A DNA stretch of 64,000 bases from Aedoeadaptatus urinae (GTDB taxonomy: Bacteria > Bacillota > Clostridia > Tissierellales > Peptoniphilaceae), in the NCBI RefSeq assembly GCF_900155585.1, contig NZ_LT707418.1, forward strand, positions 124,001 through 188,000, in the 5' to 3' direction. This document shows positions 13,106 to 22,149 of the stretch, piece after piece (position 1 is the stretch's first letter; every line of letters starts with the position of its first letter). The position numbers and the translations under genes are program-made. The notes beneath the pieces are model-generated. The model saw only the letters and a list, made by a program, of their open reading frames with translations. It had not been told where the DNA came from and made no database searches.

Positions 13106-13729
13106 CTAGAAAAGGCGATAAAGACCGATTACGCGGCCCAGTATTTTTAAATCATCGACATAAATAGGATCCATGGTGCTGTTTTCCGGTTGAAGGCGGA
13201 AGCGGCGATTGGCTTCGTCGCGATAAAAAGTTTTTATCGTGGCCTCGTCTTCGATCAGCGCCAAGATAATCTCGCCCTCTCTGGCGGTGGAGGTAGGTTC
13301 GATCAACACCTGATCGCCGTCTAAAATGCCGACGTCGATCATGCTTTCGCCCTGAACCGTTAAAAAGAAGAGATTGCGATCGTTAACGAAGTCCGTGGCC
13401 ATAGGCACCGTATCGGAAATATTTTCAGATGCTAAAATAGGCAAGCCCGCGGCAACACGCCCTAAAATGGGAATGTCCGTGGTTTTCTTTTTTGCCGATA
13501 GAAAATCGTCGTCTTGATGAATGACCTCGATGGCGCGGTTAATGGTGGCGCCGCGGCGAATATAATTTTTCAGCTCCAGCTTTTCTAAATTGGAGTGAAC
13601 CGTCGAGGTGCTTTTGATATTACAGCCATTACAGATTTCGCGAATAGAAGGGGGGTAGCCCTTGGAGTCGATAAAGCGTTTAATATAAAAGAGAATTTCC
13701 ATTTCCCGTTTTTCAAGATCTTCATACAT
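13106..13729 (-). CDS. lexA: SOS response repressor LexA
   Basis: The 207-residue protein has the winged-helix DNA-binding domain (about 1-65), the self-cleavage site Ala94-Gly95 in GRVAAGLP, the catalytic Ser129 in QGESM and Lys166 in ATIKTF. It represses DNA damage genes until RecA filaments trigger its autocleavage. The start has a good AAAGGAG site. It is divergent from a YneA-like gene, the same arrangement as lexA-yneA in B. subtilis, and LexA-type boxes lie in the intergenic region. Confidence 0.97.
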   Translation of the reverse strand: MYEDLEKREMEILFYIKRFIDSKGYPPSIREICNGCNIKSTSTVHSNLEKLELKNYIRRGATINRAIEVIHQDDDFLSAKKKTTDIPILGRVAAGLPILASENISDTVPMATDFVNDRNLFFLTVQGESMIDVGILDGDQVLIEPTSTAREGEIILALIEDEATIKTFYRDEANRRFRLQPENSTMDPIYVDDLKILGRVIGLYRLF

Positions 13730-13809: not shown

Positions 13810-13838
13810 TTGACACAGAACAACTGTTCAGATAAAAT
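13810..13838 (+). promoter_or_regulatory. Promoter of the YneA-like gene with an embedded LexA box
   Basis: TTGACA (13810-13815) and TAAAAT (13833-13838) are spaced 17 bases. The perfect LexA palindrome GAACAACTGTTC (13818-13829) occupies the spacer, so bound LexA would block RNA polymerase. Confidence 0.75.
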
Positions 13839-13902: not shown

Positions 13903-14259
13903 ATGAAAAGGGATAAAAGCATGCAAAGACAAAATCACAAAAATTTACAACTCTCTCATCGGATTATTAAAAATAGAAAGCGACTCCGTCTGCTGCCGAT
14001 TATTATTCTTTTACTTATGAGTATAATGGGGACCACGGTGCCGAAGCATCGTTCAAATACTTACCAAGTGCAAGAGGAGTACCTGGTGCAGCCCGGCGAC
14101 ACCCTGTGGTCCATCGCAACGAACTATGCCGAGCACGGCGACGATTTGCGCCTCATGATCGATCGCATGGTGGAAGCCAATCACTTAGGCGACGATTGCG
14201 CACTCAAGCCGGGCGACAAAATCATCGTCGTACTGGATGAACGGGAGCTTCCGTTATAG
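13903..14259 (+). CDS. YneA-like SOS-induced membrane-anchored LysM protein
   Basis: The 118-residue protein has a basic cytoplasmic N-terminus, one transmembrane segment (about 29-44) and a C-terminal LysM domain (about 58-110, with YLVQPGDTLWSIA and LKPGDKIIV). This is the layout of B. subtilis YneA, the SOS cell-division inhibitor encoded divergently from lexA. The promoter here carries a perfect LexA box and two more sites follow. The function is inferred from layout, position and regulation rather than from close sequence match. A GGAGG ribosome binding site precedes the ATG. Confidence 0.8.
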   Translation: MKRDKSMQRQNHKNLQLSHRIIKNRKRLRLLPIIILLLMSIMGTTVPKHRSNTYQVQEEYLVQPGDTLWSIATNYAEHGDDLRLMIDRMVEANHLGDDCALKPGDKIIVVLDERELPL

Positions 14260-15026: not shown

Positions 15027-16040
15027 TCATTCCTTAGACTCATTTTCTTTTTCAGCATCCTCTAACATTTTTTCCACGTCTTCAATATTCGCCAAAGGGT
15101 TTTGATTCATGGTATGGCGAATGTCTTCCAGGTTCACGTGAGTATAAATTTGCGTCGTGGAAATGGATTCGTGTCCCAGGATCTCCTGCAGGGATTTTAA
15201 ATCCTCGTCGCCGAATTGATACATTAAGGTGGCTGCCGTGTGGCGCAATTTATGCACGGTATATTTCCGCGTGTCGAAGCCGGCGTTTTTTAAATGTTTC
15301 TCCAACATATGCTGAATGGAACGATTGCTCATTCGTGTCTTGCGCATACTTAAAAACAGCGGCTCCTCGTCTGCCAAGCCTTCGGCCTTGCGGGCGAATA
15401 AATAAGCGTCGATGGAGCGTTCCACATTGTCGTTTAAGTAAACCAGCCGCTCCTTGGAGCCCTTGCCGATAATGCGTAAGGTGCGATCCTTGTTTAGATC
15501 CTTTACATTTAAGGAAGCGAGCTCGCTGAGCCGCAGGCCGCAATTTAAAAAGAGCATGGCTATGGCATAGTCCCTAAGGCGAAAGATGTTCTTTTGTTTA
15601 AAGTTCTGAATACTGCGGAGCAGCCGGATAGACTCCTCCAGGGTTAAGTAAACGGGAAGGGATTTTTCCATTTTAGGCATATCGATATTTTCCGAGGGAT
15701 TTTTTTCCAGGACATCCACCTTATAGGTCAGATAATCGAAAAAGGAGCGCACGGAAGAAATCTTTCGAAATTTCGTACGGCTATTGTTTTTCCGCTCCCG
15801 GTCTAAATAGGAAATATAGGCGTAAATATCCGATTTTTCGATTTTTCTGAGAAGTTCGCCGTCGACGGCATCGATGTCCACCTCGTCTAAAGATTCCACG
15901 GCGAGGCCCTCTTTTCTTACGCGCATGTAGCGGAGGAATTGGCGTACATCGTAAAAATATTCTTTAACCGTGCCTTCGCTTCGGCCTCTGGCGGCGCGCA
16001 TATAGTTTAAGTAGTCGTCCAATATATTTGCCCGAATCAT
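15027..16040 (-). CDS. Tyrosine recombinase of the XerC/XerD type
   Basis: The 337-residue protein has the N-terminal SAM-like core-binding domain and a complete catalytic set: Arg170 (CGLRLSEL), a lysine in GKGSKER near 194, His263 and Arg266 (HKLRHT), His290 (LGHES) and Tyr299. XerC/XerD proteins resolve chromosome dimers at dif sites with FtsK. The length is slightly above the usual 300, with a charged C-terminal tail. It has no neighbouring att site or integrase-linked cargo, so a housekeeping Xer role is likelier than a phage integrase. It begins 63 bases after the end of rny. Confidence 0.85.
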   Translation of the reverse strand: MIRANILDDYLNYMRAARGRSEGTVKEYFYDVRQFLRYMRVRKEGLAVESLDEVDIDAVDGELLRKIEKSDIYAYISYLDRERKNNSRTKFRKISSVRSFFDYLTYKVDVLEKNPSENIDMPKMEKSLPVYLTLEESIRLLRSIQNFKQKNIFRLRDYAIAMLFLNCGLRLSELASLNVKDLNKDRTLRIIGKGSKERLVYLNDNVERSIDAYLFARKAEGLADEEPLFLSMRKTRMSNRSIQHMLEKHLKNAGFDTRKYTVHKLRHTAATLMYQFGDEDLKSLQEILGHESISTTQIYTHVNLEDIRHTMNQNPLANIEDVEKMLEDAEKENESKE

Positions 16041-16075: not shown

Positions 16076-16105
16076 GAAAAAACCTGCCCGTAGGCAGGTT
16101 TTTTT
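16076..16105. terminator. Terminator after rny
   Basis: AACCTGCC-CGTA-GGCAGGTT (16081-16100) forms an eight-pair stem. On the minus strand it follows the rny stop and ends in a T-rich run; T-runs occur on both sides. Confidence 0.85.
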
Positions 16106-17648
16106 ATTTGGCGTATTCGATGGCACGGGTTTCGCGGATCACATTGACTTTGATCTGTCCCGGGAAATCCAGCTGCGCTTCGATTTCGTTGGCTATGTTT
16201 CGAGCCGTGGTTACCATGTGAGCCTCGTCGATTTCCTTGGGCTTCACGATGATACGCAGTTCACGTCCGGCTTGAACGGCATAGGATTTTTCGATGCCTT
16301 CGAAACCGGTGGCGATTTCTTCCAATTGTTCCAGTCGCTTAATGTAGTTTTCGATGGTTTCACGTCGTGCACCGGGTCGAGCCGCGCTAATGGCGTCGGC
16401 CGCCTGTACTAAGACGGATTCCAGAGAATTGAATTCTACATCGCCGTGGTGAGCCTCGATGCCGTTAATGACGGCTTCGGGTTCCTTGTAACGTCGCGCA
16501 AGTTCCACGCCTAATTCCACATGGGGTCCTTCCACTTCGTGGTCGATGGATTTACCCAAATCGTGGAGCAGACCGGCGCGTCTCGCCAATTTCGAATCGA
16601 TACCGATCTCTTCGGCCAAGTAGCCGGCGATTTTCGATACTTCCACGGAATGGCGCAGACAGTTTTGTCCAAAGCTGGTACGGAATTTCAGTCGGCCCAG
16701 GTACTTCACCAGCTCAGGGTGAAGACCGTGAACGCCTGCTTCAAAGGCAGCTTCTTCGCCGCTTTCTTTGATGATCTCGTCCACTTCCTGTCTCGCCTTT
16801 TCCACCGTATCCTCGATACGCGTCGGGTGGATCCGTCCGTCAAGGACCAATTTTTCCAAAGCGACGCGGGCAATTTCCCGGCGAATGGGATTAAAGGATG
16901 AAACGACTACCGCTTCCGGCGTGTCGTCGATAATCAAGTCGACGCCGGTCAAGGCTTCGATGGCGCGAATGTTTCGTCCCTCTCTGCCGATAATGCGTCC
17001 CTTCATTTCGTCGTTGGGAAGATTGACCACAGACACCGTCGTCTCGGCGACCTCGTCGGCTGCAATCCGTTGAATGGCGTGGACAATGACGTCTTGAGCG
17101 ATCTTTTTGCTCTCATCCTTAATGTGGCGTTCGTATTCTCTGATTTTCACAGCCGATTCCTGAGTCAACTCATTTTCCAATTCGTTGAGCAGAATCTGCT
17201 TCGCTTCTTCCTTCGATAGTCCGGAGATCCGTTGAATTTCTTCGGATTTCTTTTCTACCAATTCGTCGATCAGGTCTTCCTTTTCTTGAATGCGATTTTG
17301 TTGATCGAAAATTTGGCTTTCCTTTTTTTCCAAGGTCGCACTTTTCGATTGAAGCAAATCTTCCTTCGAATTCAAACGATCTTCATAGCGTTGGAGTTCG
17401 CTTTTCCGAGCATCGCTTTCCTGTTGGACCGTATCCCGAAGCTTGTGAATTTCCTCTTTCGCTTGGAATAAAATATCGCGTTTATTGTTTTCGGCTTCAC
17501 GTTCCGCTTCAATAATGATATTCTTGGCTAATTCTTCTGCACGGTTGATTTTTCCTTCAGCCGATGACTTACGTATAAAATAACCAATAGCTACTCCGAG
17601 GATTCCAATTACCAATGCCCCTATAATAGGTACCAAATATGCGGGCAT
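16104..17648 (-). CDS. rny: Ribonuclease Y
   Basis: The start chosen is the ATG at 17648, eight bases after a perfect AAGGAGG; a GTG nine bases upstream overlaps that site. This gives 514 residues. The protein has an N-terminal membrane anchor (about 3-22), a long coiled coil (about 25-200), a KH domain with [13 protein letters not shown] near 217, and an HD domain with RHSVEVS and [11 protein letters not shown]. RNase Y is the membrane-bound endonuclease that initiates mRNA decay in Firmicutes. Clostridial genomes commonly have rny next to recA; here the split SbcC-like operon lies in between. Confidence 0.97.
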
Positions 17649-17703
17649 ATGGAACACCTCCTTATTTAGTTTTCATGATTCAAATGGTATAAACCACTTG
17701 TTT

Positions 17704-17761: not shown

Positions 17762-17787
17762 CAAAAAAAGCCGCTTAGGACAGCGGC
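17762..17787 (-). terminator. Terminator of the recA-sbcD-split rad50 operon
   Basis: On the minus strand GCCGCT/AGCGGC (17787-17782 and 17775-17770) with a six-base loop is followed by seven T residues. The stem overlaps the last codons of the 228-residue ATPase gene. Confidence 0.85.
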
Positions 17788-18461
17788 CCCTTTACGATAG
17801 CCTGTTCGTCGGCATCGTCGATTAATTCCGTCACCTCGCTGATGCCGTTTCGTATGTCCACGCGAAAGGCTTTGTCACAAATGTTGGTCAGGTAGTCGTT
17901 ATGAGTGACCATAATGATTTGTCGAGAAAAAAGGCGAGAGCATTCCTTTAAAAATTCGCCCATGTTAAAAATATAATCGTCGCTTATGTGCTTGCCGGGC
18001 TCGTCGAGAAAGAGAGGCCCGTCCATTTTCGGCCGATGATTTTCCAAAAATGCGATGCGAAGGGCGAGACTGACGATATCCACCACGCCGCCGCCCCGAC
18101 TTAATTCCGGCTTCGTCTTAACTTTGTAGTCGCCGTAGTCGGACTCCACAAAAAATTCCGCAATGGGCAGACCCCGTTTTTCAGAGAGATCGACGATAAA
18201 CCTCGAGCTGTTTTGCATAATATAGGCGATGGATTGAGTGACGATGTCTTCGATTTGGTGGGTCGCCTGATTTCTCGAAAAATCCGCGGCCTTTTGAAGG
18301 AGAAACACGACGCCGTTCAGCTTCGTCTCCTCCCCTTCTACTTCTCTTATCTCGCCCTTCTTTTTTTCAATCTGCTCTTTGATCGAATCCCGTATGCCCT
18401 CTTGGCGGCTAACATCCTTTGAAAATTTTTCAAAGCGATGGTTAATTTCTTCGTAGGTCAT
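17775..18461 (-). CDS. Rad50/SbcC-like ATPase, C-terminal half (split gene)
   Basis: The 228-residue protein starts with a coiled coil (about 1-60) and ends with the C-terminal lobe of an SMC/Rad50-type ABC ATPase. It has a signature-like SRGGGVVDIVSLALR (121-135), Walker B GPLFLDEP with Asp153-Glu154, and the switch histidine in VTHND (His187). It has no Walker A of its own. The missing P-loop is in the protein encoded at 18698-20137, so the two should form one ATPase head. It overlaps the small coiled-coil gene by four bases (ATGA) and is the last gene of the operon. Confidence 0.85.
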   Translation of the reverse strand: MTYEEINHRFEKFSKDVSRQEGIRDSIKEQIEKKKGEIREVEGEETKLNGVVFLLQKAADFSRNQATHQIEDIVTQSIAYIMQNSSRFIVDLSEKRGLPIAEFFVESDYGDYKVKTKPELSRGGGVVDIVSLALRIAFLENHRPKMDGPLFLDEPGKHISDDYIFNMGEFLKECSRLFSRQIIMVTHNDYLTNICDKAFRVDIRNGISEVTELIDDADEQAIVKGPLS

Positions 18462-18697
18462 GACCGATCCTCGGGCAAGAGTTTTTCCGCCTCATCCAAC
18501 AAGCGAAGGATCTCCCCTTCCATCCGTTCAATTTCTTCCTCCAAGGTGTCGGGATTAAAGCCTAGGGCCTTGATTTTTGCGTTTAGCTCCTTCTCTTCCC
18601 TTTCCAGCTCTTCCATGCGCCATTCCGCGCGCTTTCTCGTGTCCTTGGCCTGCTCGTAACGTTTGTTTAAATCGCTAATCCGTTGTTCTAAGTTCAT
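18458..18697 (-). CDS. Small coiled-coil protein of the split SbcC-like operon
   Basis: The 79-residue protein is nearly all charged heptad-like sequence (for example RYEQAKDTRKRAEWRMEEL) with a Gly-Phe-Asn-Pro break near residue 47. It has no enzymatic motif. It lies exactly between the genes for the two ATPase halves, starting directly after the stop of one and overlapping the other by four bases. By position it may supply part of the returning arm of a Rad50-like coiled coil or bridge the halves. This role is inference; the protein alone is not recognisable. Confidence 0.7.
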   Translation of the reverse strand: MNLEQRISDLNKRYEQAKDTRKRAEWRMEELEREEKELNAKIKALGFNPDTLEEEIERMEGEILRLLDEAEKLLPEDRS

Positions 18698-20137
18698 CTA
18701 ATCCTCCAAACTATGCTTAATGGCGTGAAGCGCCTTATCGTCAATGGTCTGCTTGCACAAGGGACAAGTGCCTGCGTGGGAGAGGCAGTCGAGATAAGCG
18801 TTCATAGCCTGCCGATCGCCCTCGATCAAATGCTTTAAATCCACTGCCGTTTTATTTTTCTCATCCCTTAATCGCCTTTGGTCGTTTTTTAATGACTCAA
18901 TGGATTGTTCTTTCTCCATCATTTCAGCTATTTGAGTATTTAATAGGGCCAATTGGTCCAGCTGATCGAATCGAGTGAGAAACTGTGCCCCCTTTTCCAT
19001 TCGAAGCTTTAATTCCTTAAAGGCAGCAAGGGTACGGCTATAGTCGCAAAATGAAACGTATTTTTCCCGAAGGTTCATGGCCTCCACGTCAAAAACGCCT
19101 TTCGTTTCCCGCAAAATGATTCCATTGGTTCTCTCTGCCTCGCGAATGGATTGCATGCGATTAAAATCGGGCAAGATACCGTCGTATGTAGCTTTTAATT
19201 TCGCCAATTGCGTTAAACTCGACTCCAGCGCATTGACATTTTCATAGAGTGACAAAAGGGCCTTCGTTTCCTTTCGGCCTTTCTGATTTTGTAAAAAGAG
19301 ATCGAAAAGCAAGCGCTCGTTTCTGTAATGCTCGACGTTTCGCTGCAGGTGCATCAGCTTGTTTCGGAGCTCGTCCAACACGGCGTAACGAGCTATGGCA
19401 TCCTTTGTCAGGGCGCGATCTTGATTTATATCCCTCAGTGCTTCGGCGAAAGCTTTCGCCGTCTCCGCCTTTTCCTTTAGCTCCGAAACAGAGCACAGAA
19501 GCTTTTCGACCCTTTCGCGCAAGACTATTTGATCGTCTAAATCGGAAAAGGCCTCCAGGGACTTCTCCGTTTCCTCGAGATCTTTTTCCATTAATTCGCG
19601 GCGAAGGGAGATCTGTTTCTTATCCCGCAAAGTGTCGCGCATGGTTTCGTCTAAAAGATCGACGCCCACCATTCGGCCGATGGCCTGCGCTTTATAAGCG
19701 TCGGTTTCCTGAAGCAAAAAGGGGCCGTCCAGCTGATCGGAAAAGTTTAAGGGCAAGGACTTTTTGTCGTCCAGCATGATTTTTTTGATGCCGATGGCCT
19801 CTTCGATTTCCTTCGGCACATTCTTCCCGAAGCCTTCAAAGATCAGTTCCTCTTCGTCGGGCCGGCGCAAAATGTATTGATTCTTTGAACGACTGCGACG
19901 TCGCTCCACCTCCACGTGGTTTTGAAAGCGTACGGTAACGGAAACCTCCGATTCCCCTTCACGAACGAATTCCACGCCGGAAGGGTCGTTAAACATATTC
20001 CAGCGCAGGGCGCGCATGATGGCGGTCTTTCCGCTGTCGGAAGGGCCTACGATGACGTTGACGCCGCGGGAAAGGCTGAGCTCGGAGTAGACGTGGGATT
20101 GAAAATTGACGAGAATAATCTTTTCTATAAAATTCAA
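18698..20137 (-). CDS. Rad50/SbcC-like ATPase, N-terminal half ending in a zinc hook
   Basis: The 479-residue protein starts with the Rad50/SbcC N-terminal lobe: NFQSH near 11-15 and Walker A GPSDSGKT (31-38). A long coiled coil (about 155-450) follows and the chain ends just after CPLC (458-461), the CxxC zinc hook that joins two Rad50 arms. No signature motif or Walker B is present, so it must pair with the C-terminal half encoded at 17775-18461. The TTG start overlaps the stop of the SbcD-like gene (TTGA) and has a GGAGGAG site. Such N-terminal lobes with FQSH and GPSD-GK also occur in phage and clostridial SbcC-like proteins. Confidence 0.88.
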   Translation of the reverse strand: MNFIEKIILVNFQSHVYSELSLSRGVNVIVGPSDSGKTAIMRALRWNMFNDPSGVEFVREGESEVSVTVRFQNHVEVERRRSRSKNQYILRRPDEEELIFEGFGKNVPKEIEEAIGIKKIMLDDKKSLPLNFSDQLDGPFLLQETDAYKAQAIGRMVGVDLLDETMRDTLRDKKQISLRRELMEKDLEETEKSLEAFSDLDDQIVLRERVEKLLCSVSELKEKAETAKAFAEALRDINQDRALTKDAIARYAVLDELRNKLMHLQRNVEHYRNERLLFDLFLQNQKGRKETKALLSLYENVNALESSLTQLAKLKATYDGILPDFNRMQSIREAERTNGIILRETKGVFDVEAMNLREKYVSFCDYSRTLAAFKELKLRMEKGAQFLTRFDQLDQLALLNTQIAEMMEKEQSIESLKNDQRRLRDEKNKTAVDLKHLIEGDRQAMNAYLDCLSHAGTCPLCKQTIDDKALHAIKHSLED

Positions 20138-21114
20138 ATGCCGCTCCTCCTCTCCTGTACTTGAGCGATGCGTGCCATAGCCTCCTCTTTGATTGCCGGA
20201 TCCAATTTTTCGTTGGCGGAAATATCGGCAAGCAAATCGAAGAAATTAATGCGGTCGTAATTGCCCGTGCGGTCGATGGACTCCTTGAACTCGGCCAACT
20301 CTCTGCGCTTAAATTTGTGCATCTCGATTTCCGTTCGGTCCAAAACCTCCGATCCGGGTCGCGCGGATTTTAAATAGCGCTCCGTGATGGTGGCGTTGTT
20401 TTTCTTCACGTCGATAAGTAAAATTTTCGGACGCCTCTTAAGCTCCGTCATGGAGTTTGAAATTCGCACGATGGCGCCTGGATTGGCGAACACCTTCCCC
20501 TCGACCTCTGTCGTCGGAAAACCGTCGTGTAGGTGGCCGGATAAGGTCAGATCCGCCTTGGTGTCCAAAATATCGTCGATAAGGGTGTTGGAAAACATGG
20601 CCTTCACATTGCCGGACATTAAGAAGCCGTGGACCAGGTGGATGGCATAATCCGCCGAAGGATCCCGCTCATCGAGCACATAGAGAGCGCGGTTTTCCTC
20701 ACGGTCGATGCCGTAAATATAGGGAGAGCCGCTTAATTGCACGGTGGTCTCTTCGTCTTTTAAGAGAAGCCGCTGATTGTTAATTAAGTGAATGATCCCC
20801 AGCGTATCCAAAAGGCCCATCATGGTCCTTGGCAAGGTGATGGGATTGTGGCCGTAAATATCGTGATTGCCGCTAATAGCATAAATCGGCGCCTGAAAGC
20901 TTTTTAAAATCGGAATGATTTCGTTCATAACCGAAATCGAAACGTCCGGTCGATCGAAAAGGTCGCCTCCATGTAAAACGGAGTGGACCTTTTCTTCGGC
21001 GGCGATGGATTGAATCTCCTGTAATTTAATTTTGACCGTATGGAAAAACGAATCCGTTCTGGATTTCGGATTCGTTCCTCGAATGTGACTGTCTGTGAAG
21101 TACAGGAATTTCAA
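20134..21114 (-). CDS. SbcD/Mre11-like metallophosphoesterase
   Basis: The 326-residue protein has all calcineurin-like nuclease motifs: DSH (8-10), GGDLFDRPD (49-57), GNHD (82-85), VHG (161-163) and GHLH (193-196). These bind two metal ions in SbcD/Mre11 exonucleases. The C-terminal part (about 240-326) would bind the ATPase partner. The TTG start follows GGAGGAA three bases after recA. Being translationally coupled to a Rad50-like ATPase and to recA points to double-strand break end processing. It is distinct from canonical SbcD in sequence; exonuclease activity is inferred. Confidence 0.88.
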   Translation of the reverse strand: MKFLYFTDSHIRGTNPKSRTDSFFHTVKIKLQEIQSIAAEEKVHSVLHGGDLFDRPDVSISVMNEIIPILKSFQAPIYAISGNHDIYGHNPITLPRTMMGLLDTLGIIHLINNQRLLLKDEETTVQLSGSPYIYGIDREENRALYVLDERDPSADYAIHLVHGFLMSGNVKAMFSNTLIDDILDTKADLTLSGHLHDGFPTTEVEGKVFANPGAIVRISNSMTELKRRPKILLIDVKKNNATITERYLKSARPGSEVLDRTEIEMHKFKRRELAEFKESIDRTGNYDRINFFDLLADISANEKLDPAIKEEAMARIAQVQERRSGI

Positions 21115-21117
21115 ATT

Positions 21118-22149
21118 TTATTCCTCCTCGGAGGGCACGCCTTCGTTGTTTTCCTTGTTCTCGCCCATATGGTAATGAATGCGAACTTTTTCGTCGATAT
21201 CATTTAACAGATCCGGATTTTCCAGCAAATAGGCCTTGGAATTTTCACGACCCTGACCGAGCTTTGCATCGCCGTAGCTGAACCAGGAGCCGGATTTTTC
21301 AATAATGCCCGCTTCCACGGCGGCATCCAGAACGGAGCCCACTTTTGAAATGCCCGTGCCGTACATAATGTCGAACTCGGCTTTCTTGAAGGGCGGCGCT
21401 ACCTTGTTCTTAACGACTTTCACGCGAACGCGATTACCGATAATTTCATCGCCCTTCTTCAAGCTGTCGATGCGGCGAATATCCATGCGCACGGTGGTAA
21501 AGAATTTAAGGGCGCGGCCGCCTGTGGTCGTTTCGGGATTGCCGAACATAACGCCGATTTTTTCGCGCAGCTGATTGATGAAGATAACGGAGGCCTTGGA
21601 TTTGCTGATGGCGCCGGTGAGCTTTCTTAAGCCTTGGCTCATGAGGCGAGCCTGAAGACCCATGTGGCTGTCGCCCATTTCCCCTTCGATTTCCGCCTTC
21701 GGAACCAGTGCGGCTACGGAGTCCACGACGATTATATCGACGGCGTTGCTGCGAACCAGGCTTTCCGTGATTTCGAGAGCCTGTTCCCCTGTGTCCGGTT
21801 GAGAGATAATTAAATTTTCCGTGTCCACGCCTAGATTTTTGCTGTACTGAGGATCCAGGGCGTGCTCCGCATCGATAAAGGCTGCCGTTCCGCCGAGCTT
21901 TTGAGCTTCGGCGATCATGTGCAGAGCCAGTGTCGTCTTCCCGGAGGATTCGGGACCGTAAATTTCGATGATCCGTCCTCTGGGAATGCCGCCGATCCCA
22001 AGGGCCACATCTAAGCTTAAGGAGCCTGTGGGAATCGACTCTATATTTAAATTGGCATTTTCGCCGAGACGCATAATGGCGCCTTTGCCGTATTCCTTTT
22101 CGATTTTAGCGATGGCATCGTCTAATGCTCTTTTTCTACTTTCGTCCAT
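21118..22149 (-). CDS. recA: Recombinase RecA
   Basis: The 343-residue protein has Walker A GPESSGKT (65-72), Walker [11 protein letters not shown] near 140 and the L2 region with [22 protein letters not shown]. It forms filaments on single-stranded DNA, promotes strand exchange and triggers LexA cleavage. The ATG overlaps cinA by 14 bases, a common cinA-recA pairing. A set of SbcD-like and split Rad50-like genes follows in the same run with a 3-base gap, so damage signalling and end processing may be co-expressed. No SOS box was seen directly before it. Confidence 0.98.

Follow-up and report, generated by a model that had tools for sequence, protein, structure and literature searches.

We analyzed a 64,000-nucleotide (nt) stretch of the Aedoeadaptatus urinae genome (contig NZ_LT707418.1, positions 124,001 to 188,000; referred to in its entirety as the window), in which four genes on the minus strand of the recA-rny interval, designated D, N, S, and C, encode a nuclease resembling SbcD/Mre11 and the parts of a Rad50/SbcC-like ATP-binding cassette (ABC) ATPase distributed over separate chains. 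The three ATPase-part open reading frames (ORFs) and the nuclease gene described in an initial annotation, made from the sequence alone, are present on this strand at the positions given there, and the genome (1.82 Mb in 4 contigs) carries one strong copy of the split system. The genes and their immediate neighbors are listed below (aa, amino acids).

20134..21114, minus strand: D, SbcD/Mre11-like nuclease subunit, 326 aa, TTG start; matches Metallophos (4e-12) and Mre11 models (1e-10)
18698..20137, minus strand: N, Rad50 N-lobe with helical arm and CPLC motif, 479 aa, TTG start
18458..18697, minus strand: S, helical protein, 79 aa, ATG start, invariant P49; conserved in 33 aligned rows
17775..18461, minus strand: C, Rad50 C-lobe (signature, Walker B, switch His), 228 aa, ATG start
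21118..22149, minus strand: recA (TIGR02012, 2e-172)
16104..17657, minus strand: rny (RNase Y), downstream neighbor (TIGR03319, 3e-219)

The order of transcription is rimO, pgsA, cinA, recA, D, N, S, C, a terminator-like stem, and rny, with the neighboring genes named from NCBIfam matches. D lies 3 nt downstream of recA, the D and N genes share 4 nt, as do S and C, and the N TAG abuts the S start, both being in the same frame in the window.

Conservation of the split gene set

The distribution of the system within the order was determined in 61 Tissierellales genomes, with C counted at E<1e-30 (two further matches were weak). C is found in 35 of these genomes, that of the window included, N occurs in exactly the same 35, and D in those 35 and one fragmentary genome. 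Of 37 regions fetched from the order, 34 were used, one per other bearing genome, after a partial locus (L068) and two weak matches (L069 and L070) were dropped. In all 34 loci, as far as the contigs extend, each of D, N, S, and C has an ORF of its own; one locus is cut by a contig end and lacks D and N. BLAST located S in 33 of them, and inspection by eye in the remaining one. recA lies upstream of D in 32/34 loci, the other two being cut by contig ends, and rny lies downstream in 27/34. Among loci with both genes located, the frameshifted Peptoniphilus obesi locus excluded, the N-S gap ranges from -23 to +82 nt and the S-C gap from -14 to +33 nt, and all three frames are represented. Neither the window nor any of the 34 loci encodes both Rad50 lobes in one polypeptide. 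The three-gene form of the ATPase is thus conserved, contig ends aside, and the continuous chain in close relatives that the initial annotation had named as evidence against its own reading was looked for in the order and not found.

A second set, overlapping the order genomes, comprised the best 80 of 255 relatives in titled genome contigs. All four genes are carried by 76 of these 80 loci, and in 72 of the 76, a count that takes in the P. obesi locus, each gene is a single ORF; recA is present in 74 and rny in 66. The closest sampled genome by C (89% identical) is that of Aedoeadaptatus pacaensis, which is Peptoniphilus pacaensis in NCBI's taxonomy (Tissierellales, Peptoniphilaceae), and in comparison with it the ratio of nonsynonymous to synonymous substitution rates (dN/dS) is 0.06 for D, 0.14 for N, 0.025 for S (the lowest), and 0.09 for C. 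By pattern, ribosome binding sites precede S in 74/80 loci, N in 55/79, D in 48/76, and C in 23/80, proportions that exceed those of internal-ATG controls (19/335 and 7/204). The clean ribosome binding sites that the initial annotation attributed to each gene are therefore clear before S and N and weak before C. The D start is TTG in 55/76 loci of this set, as chosen by us, and N, S, and C mostly start with ATG. Partial pieces of N, S, and C occur in both orientations on one short Peptoniphilus harei contig (L136), which may reflect a duplication or an assembly artefact.

Domain matches and active-site motifs

N matches AAA_23 (2e-12) and Rad50 models (5e-14), C matches Rad50 C-termini weakly (4e-5), and the sequence matches of both in the PDB are Rad50 and SMC heads. 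These include the chains of two-chain Rad50 heads, with N matching 1f2t_A (E 0.0045) and C matching 1f2t_B (E 0.0084). In PHROGs, each chain matches a separate phage family (N, 16465, 1e-64; S, 18563, 1e-6; C, 15167, 2e-57). The conserved motifs are positioned as follows, with invariance given over 34 aligned rows.

20024..20047, minus strand: Walker A GPSDSGKT, N residues 31-38; G31, S33, G36, and K37 invariant
18755..18766, minus strand: CPLC hook motif, N residues 458-461; C458, P459, and C461 invariant
18087..18101, minus strand: ABC signature variant SRGGG, C residues 121-125; G123-G125 invariant
17997..18014, minus strand: Walker B LFLDEP, C residues 150-155; L152, D153, and E154 invariant
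17901..17903, minus strand: switch histidine, C residue 187; H187 invariant

The Q-loop glutamine of N (Q135) and the serine at the D-loop position of C (S160) are likewise invariant in 34 rows. The N-lobe features of Rad50/SbcC (Walker A, Q-loop) are thereby located on N and the C-lobe features (signature, Walker B, switch His) on C, and the motif positions confirm the division of the head between N and a separate 228-aa protein proposed in the initial annotation. A CxxC motif, a putative zinc hook, is found at the tip of the N arm, and a CxxC beyond residue 200 is present in 92/93 bacterial and 71/73 viral N proteins. N does terminate shortly past the CPLC motif; the break is positioned 18 residues after the hook and not exactly at its apex, as had been proposed. 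In D, residues D8, H10, D51, N83, H84, H162, H194, and H196 are invariant in 32 rows and correspond to the Mre11 metal site, and the phosphoesterase motifs of a two-metal nuclease are present.

Predicted head structure of a fused relative

A natural D-N-C fusion was modeled with AlphaFold2 (30 rows), giving a predicted local distance difference test score (pLDDT) of 85.1 and a predicted template modeling score (pTM) of 0.61. The best Foldseek match of the model is Rad50 (3qkt_A, 1.5e-16). VIA-align places residues 328-681 of the fusion on the Rad50 head 3qku_A (Z 26.2, root-mean-square deviation 4.7, 325 aligned) and residues 1-260 on Mre11 5dny_A (Z 24.9, root-mean-square deviation 2.8, 240 aligned). 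Since the fusion is predicted as a Rad50 head joined to Mre11, N and C probably make up a single head. Evidence that the two lobes pair is indirect, consisting of the natural N-C and D-N-C fusions and of the model of one such fusion.

Distribution in the phylum, phages, and plasmids

Across 398 genomes of the phylum (C at E<=1e-10), C was found in 65 genomes at 69 places, comprising 66 frames of 147-314 aa and three of 686-702 aa. The three long frames belong to one distant Bacillota family (loci L181, L182, and L183; genomes G457-G461, loci L205-L212), and among the eight genomes of this family that were searched, six encode D-N-C as one chain and two encode D apart from an N-C chain of ~380 aa. 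No CxxC is present in the eight proteins, and the S profile has no match in the surrounding stretches of 4-9 kb each. In one N-C chain (L212), LDDP replaces LDEP and Tyr replaces the switch His, and this protein may be inactive. An S match was found in 94 of the 97 bacterial loci with N and C (L101-L200), and the other three are the armless fusions; because S is missing from these alone, it appears to accompany the arm.

A scan of viral contigs gave 81 relatives, of which 80 were kept. C is unjoined to N or D in 80/80 viral loci, a few of them cut by a contig end, and in three loci D and N form one chain. The S profile matches 29/80 viral loci; in 44 of the 51 without a match, an ORF of 55-140 aa terminates close to where C begins, and ~37 of these 44 appear S-like by eye. 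Phage vB_BboS-125 encodes N, an AP2-domain gene, S, and C, together with D. The AP2-domain gene between N and S (L032:6416-6988) is possibly a homing endonuclease, and the D gene of this phage (L032:8256-9236) is unannotated in the record. In Microbacterium phage Magritte (L033, L201), C is positioned near the start of the linear record and N ~93 kb away. Matches to C were found in 9 of 72,556 plasmid records, including Geobacillus pGspE55-1, where an 801-aa nuclease plus N-lobe chain, a 92-aa ORF, and C follow in succession. The names given in the phage and plasmid records examined are hypothetical protein, AAA family ATPase, ATPase, exonuclease, and chromosome segregation/partitioning protein.

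In a quick, unrooted tree of 130 C-lobes, which took in 29 of the 80 best-relative loci, the chromosomal copies, most of them recA-linked, group together as 31 rows with modest support (80) within a viral set of greater diversity. From this tree we infer that the chromosomal locus may be of phage origin.

Relation to canonical SbcCD

The SbcC Walker-B family PF13558 exceeds its cut-off in 18 of the 61 order genomes, namely in 1/35 with the split system versus 17/26 without it (Fisher p 8e-8, kinship uncorrected). In the genome of the window it has 0 matches at E<=0.001, and it is absent from the domain matches of C. The skewed distribution indicates that the split system probably replaces SbcCD within the order Tissierellales. 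At the level of the phylum, according to our reading of the match lists, 25 of the 65 bearing genomes also match PF13558 at E<=1.5e-7, and some matches fall in open frames of ~1,400 aa, which are unlikely to be SbcC. Exclusion of SbcCD by the split system is therefore partial in the phylum, and replacement is a statement on this order.

The N arm, its 47-residue repeat, and S

The arm of N contains a periodicity that is represented in the window by one feature.

18839..19543, minus strand: five 47-residue repeat units, N residues ~199-433, with the phase of the units chosen by us

The autocorrelation of the arm profile reaches 0.40 at lag 47, which is 13.9 null standard deviations, is high also at lags 94 and 141, and was equaled at lag 47 by 0/500 block shuffles. 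When sequences are taken singly, lag 47 scores best among lags 30 to 70 for 70/93 bacterial and 24/73 viral N proteins. It is best in 1/32 arms of 16 canonical SbcC-type proteins, a set of 15 picked by strong PF13558 matches plus the E. coli protein, in which the hook was located for E. coli alone and assumed at the mid-point for the other 15, so that equal arms in those 15 are without meaning. The claim of a repeat rests on the profile autocorrelation and the single-sequence lags. A hidden Markov model (HMM) of the 47-residue unit gives 0 matches in 69/96 bacterial and 68/73 viral N proteins; 45 of 58 consecutive matches are spaced by 47. For unique arm lengths, 52 gives a better fit than 47 (0.73 versus 0.58), and the ladder of total lengths is not clean. 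In an N-S model built from the window and relatives with the stop read as Gly, from which the helix breaks alone were used, the arm is nearly all helix with breaks at 197-199, 251-253, 345-353, and 392.

Arm lengths were compared over 116 loci, each with all three of N, S, and C, a complete N start, and a hook; the fused L181-L183 were excluded. Between lobe and hook the arm measures 134-355 residues (median 299), and the possible return strand, comprising the N tail, S, and the C coil, has a median of 149 residues (range 77-174). The slope of return strand against arm length is -0.002 +- 0.024, against a value of 1 expected for a simple antiparallel pair; in E. coli SbcC the two arm strands are ~339 and 347 residues as measured with fixed offsets. 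With one S per N, the equal antiparallel arm strands of Rad50/SbcC are thus absent, and a classical coil cannot be completed by C and a single S. The 79-residue coil between the halves described in the initial annotation exists insofar as the S gene lies there, and its role as a single filler of the classical coil is at odds with the lengths. Because the return strand is independent of arm length, either several S molecules are present, or N arms pair with each other, or the N arm is folded.

The median strength of the ribosome binding site is greatest for S (-10.2 kcal/mol), followed by D (-8.4), N (-7.8), and C (-5.4), which fits an excess of S without showing one. It is conceivable, though doubtful, that the system is a modular Rad50, in which the N arm would be a ladder of 47-residue units and multiple copies of S, made in excess, would supply the return strand piecewise, the first helix of each S corresponding to about one unit. 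The number of N units would then set the length of the arm with S and C unchanged, and C would close the head in trans. Were this so, the arm of the ATPase would be built of repeating subunits and not of a folded chain.

Other features of the window

Several further features are positioned around the four genes. A terminator-like stem and T run is located at the C end (17770..17784, minus strand) by pattern match only, and terminator-like and promoter-like pattern matches in the region are no more frequent than expected by chance. Beyond rny, an XerC/D-like recombinase is found at window positions 15027-16040 with scores below the model cut-offs, and its position is kept in many relatives. lexA (TIGR00498) occupies 13106-13729, a GAACNNNNGTTC site lies at 13818-13829, and divergent from lexA is a small LysM-domain protein at 13903-14259, which we take to be YneA-like. 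No LexA box was found ahead of the recA operon; the window has a single perfect GAACNNNNGTTC, the one adjoining lexA, and one perfect site per window is the number expected by chance.

Discussion

The evidence points to a split Mre11-Rad50/SbcCD complex for DNA-end processing that is encoded with recA, and we consider this identification likely. In this complex, recA, D, N, S, and C would probably be expressed on one transcript, and N (contributing the Walker A lobe, the arm, and the hook) and C (contributing the signature, Walker B, and the switch His) would assemble in trans into one Rad50-type ABC head. ATP would dimerize two such heads, D would dock on them and cut DNA ends, hairpins, or blocked ends, S would lie along or beside the N arm, and zinc would still join two N hooks. 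In Tissierellales the split system would probably perform the job of the missing canonical SbcCD, handing ends to the recombination pathway of RecA.

Several observations weigh against this interpretation. The overlap with PF13558 in the phylum has been given above. SMC and cohesin heads fit the D-N-C model almost equally well (Z 24-26), and the Rad50 head fold was predicted for the fused relative alone, from which it is extended to N and C of the window. The Rad50 consensus has SGGE as its signature and an Asp in the D-loop, and both the SRGGG signature and the D-loop Ser of C differ from it. N matches Lamassu LmuB models (4e-16). The N-S model has a pTM of 0.34, and the placement of neither the arm nor S is taken from it. 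The pattern used detects a ribosome binding site before C in fewer than a third of the loci, the C gene of P. obesi (L049/L151) is apparently frameshifted near residue 35 with loss of its start, and four loci (L110, L129, L133, and L146) each have N or D in two ORFs.

The match to LmuB raises the alternative that the genes form a defence module of the Lamassu or MADS type and not a repair complex. PADLOC reports it for N as a partial match to the model of LmuB, in Lamassu a single chain with an LmuA effector as partner, together with mad3 for C (8e-10), and viral contigs often carry the family, which is also present on plasmids. The system nevertheless occupies a fixed site behind recA among the neighbors cinA, pgsA, rimO, and rny, has one strong copy in the genome of the window, includes an Mre11-type nuclease, and excludes PF13558 at the level of the order, and we regard a defence module as improbable. 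It is also quite improbable that N and C belong to separate complexes, with C, for example, partnering another Walker A protein. The distance between the two genes in Magritte would allow this, as would the derivation of the predicted head from a fused relative. N and C nonetheless share exactly the same genomes of the order, and they are naturally fused in the distant family.

Programmed readthrough or frameshifting could in principle join N, S, and C into one chain, given that in the window the N TAG directly precedes the in-frame S ATG and S and C overlap by 4 nt. The N-S spacing modulo 3, however, is 2 in 35, 0 in 26, and 1 in 17 of 78 loci, the S-C spacing is 1 in 54, 2 in 21, and 0 in 4 of 79, all three genes are in frame in 0/95 loci, and in Magritte the length of DNA between N and C separates them. 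This variation in gaps and frames rules out a conserved readthrough, and we hold the mechanism to be very unlikely. A recently broken single-chain SbcC, suggested by the single chain of canonical SbcC/Rad50 and the in-frame N-stop-S of the window, is refuted, as the initial annotation had argued, by the conserved split in the order and in viral loci, the variable gaps and frames, the low dN/dS, the ribosome binding sites, and the whole gene intervening between N and S in vB_BboS-125, leaving a recent frameshift or assembly error a negligible prospect.

Taken as a split Mre11-Rad50 complex, the system is of a kind already known, and its split form, to judge from our searches, seems undescribed among the open-licence papers that they listed. 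It resembles E. coli SbcCD and archaeal Mre11-Rad50 in combining an Mre11-type nuclease with a Rad50-type ABC ATPase and a CxxC hook, and the head predicted for the fused relative agrees in fold with solved structures of Rad50. It differs from them in the three chains of its ATPase, the SRGGG signature and D-loop Ser, and a 47-residue repeat arm about twice as long as the possible return strand. The split system thus departs from Rad50 in its chain number and, with one S per N, in its unequal arms, yet probably works like Rad50.

Mre11/Rad50 fusion proteins have been described in Mimivirus (R555) and elsewhere, and for Anaerostipes and Bacillus phage 0305phi8-36 one P-loop segment was not observed (PMC3175470). 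Like the distant family, these have nuclease and ATPase lobes in one chain, and like the split system they occur in phages and plasmids. They differ in that Rad50 is one chain or has one P-loop segment unobserved, and the available portions of that report mention no separate C-lobe gene. In jumbo phages, the cores of DNA polymerase III alpha and RNA polymerase are split into polypeptides thought to reconstitute, so that, as here, one enzyme core arises from separate polypeptides (PMC7824862); the split enzymes are different ones, and SbcC/SbcD appear in the available portions of that article without mention of a split. PHROGs families 16465, 18563, and 15167 (Bacillus phage vB_BboS-125) contain the same chains in the order N, S, C, but are labeled merely exonuclease, unknown, and ATPase, and the system is unnamed. 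The structures 1f2t and 1ii8 likewise hold the Rad50 N- and C-lobes as separate polypeptides, which we take to be laboratory-made from single-chain Rad50. No report of a split Rad50/SbcC was found among the open-licence papers listed by the searches, which left subscription papers and preprints outside their scope.

Rad50 is among the best studied of repair machines, and its single folded-back chain is taken as part of its mechanism. Much of one bacterial order appears to run end processing on a naturally split Rad50, of which the viral set is more diverse. With lobes, arm, and possible return strand encoded by separate genes, head assembly, arm length, and the hook become independently testable, which is hard with one chain, and the fused relatives that lack an arm provide a minimal complex to compare with. 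Given the generic gene names in phage and plasmid records, genomes without an sbcC by name may still have its function.

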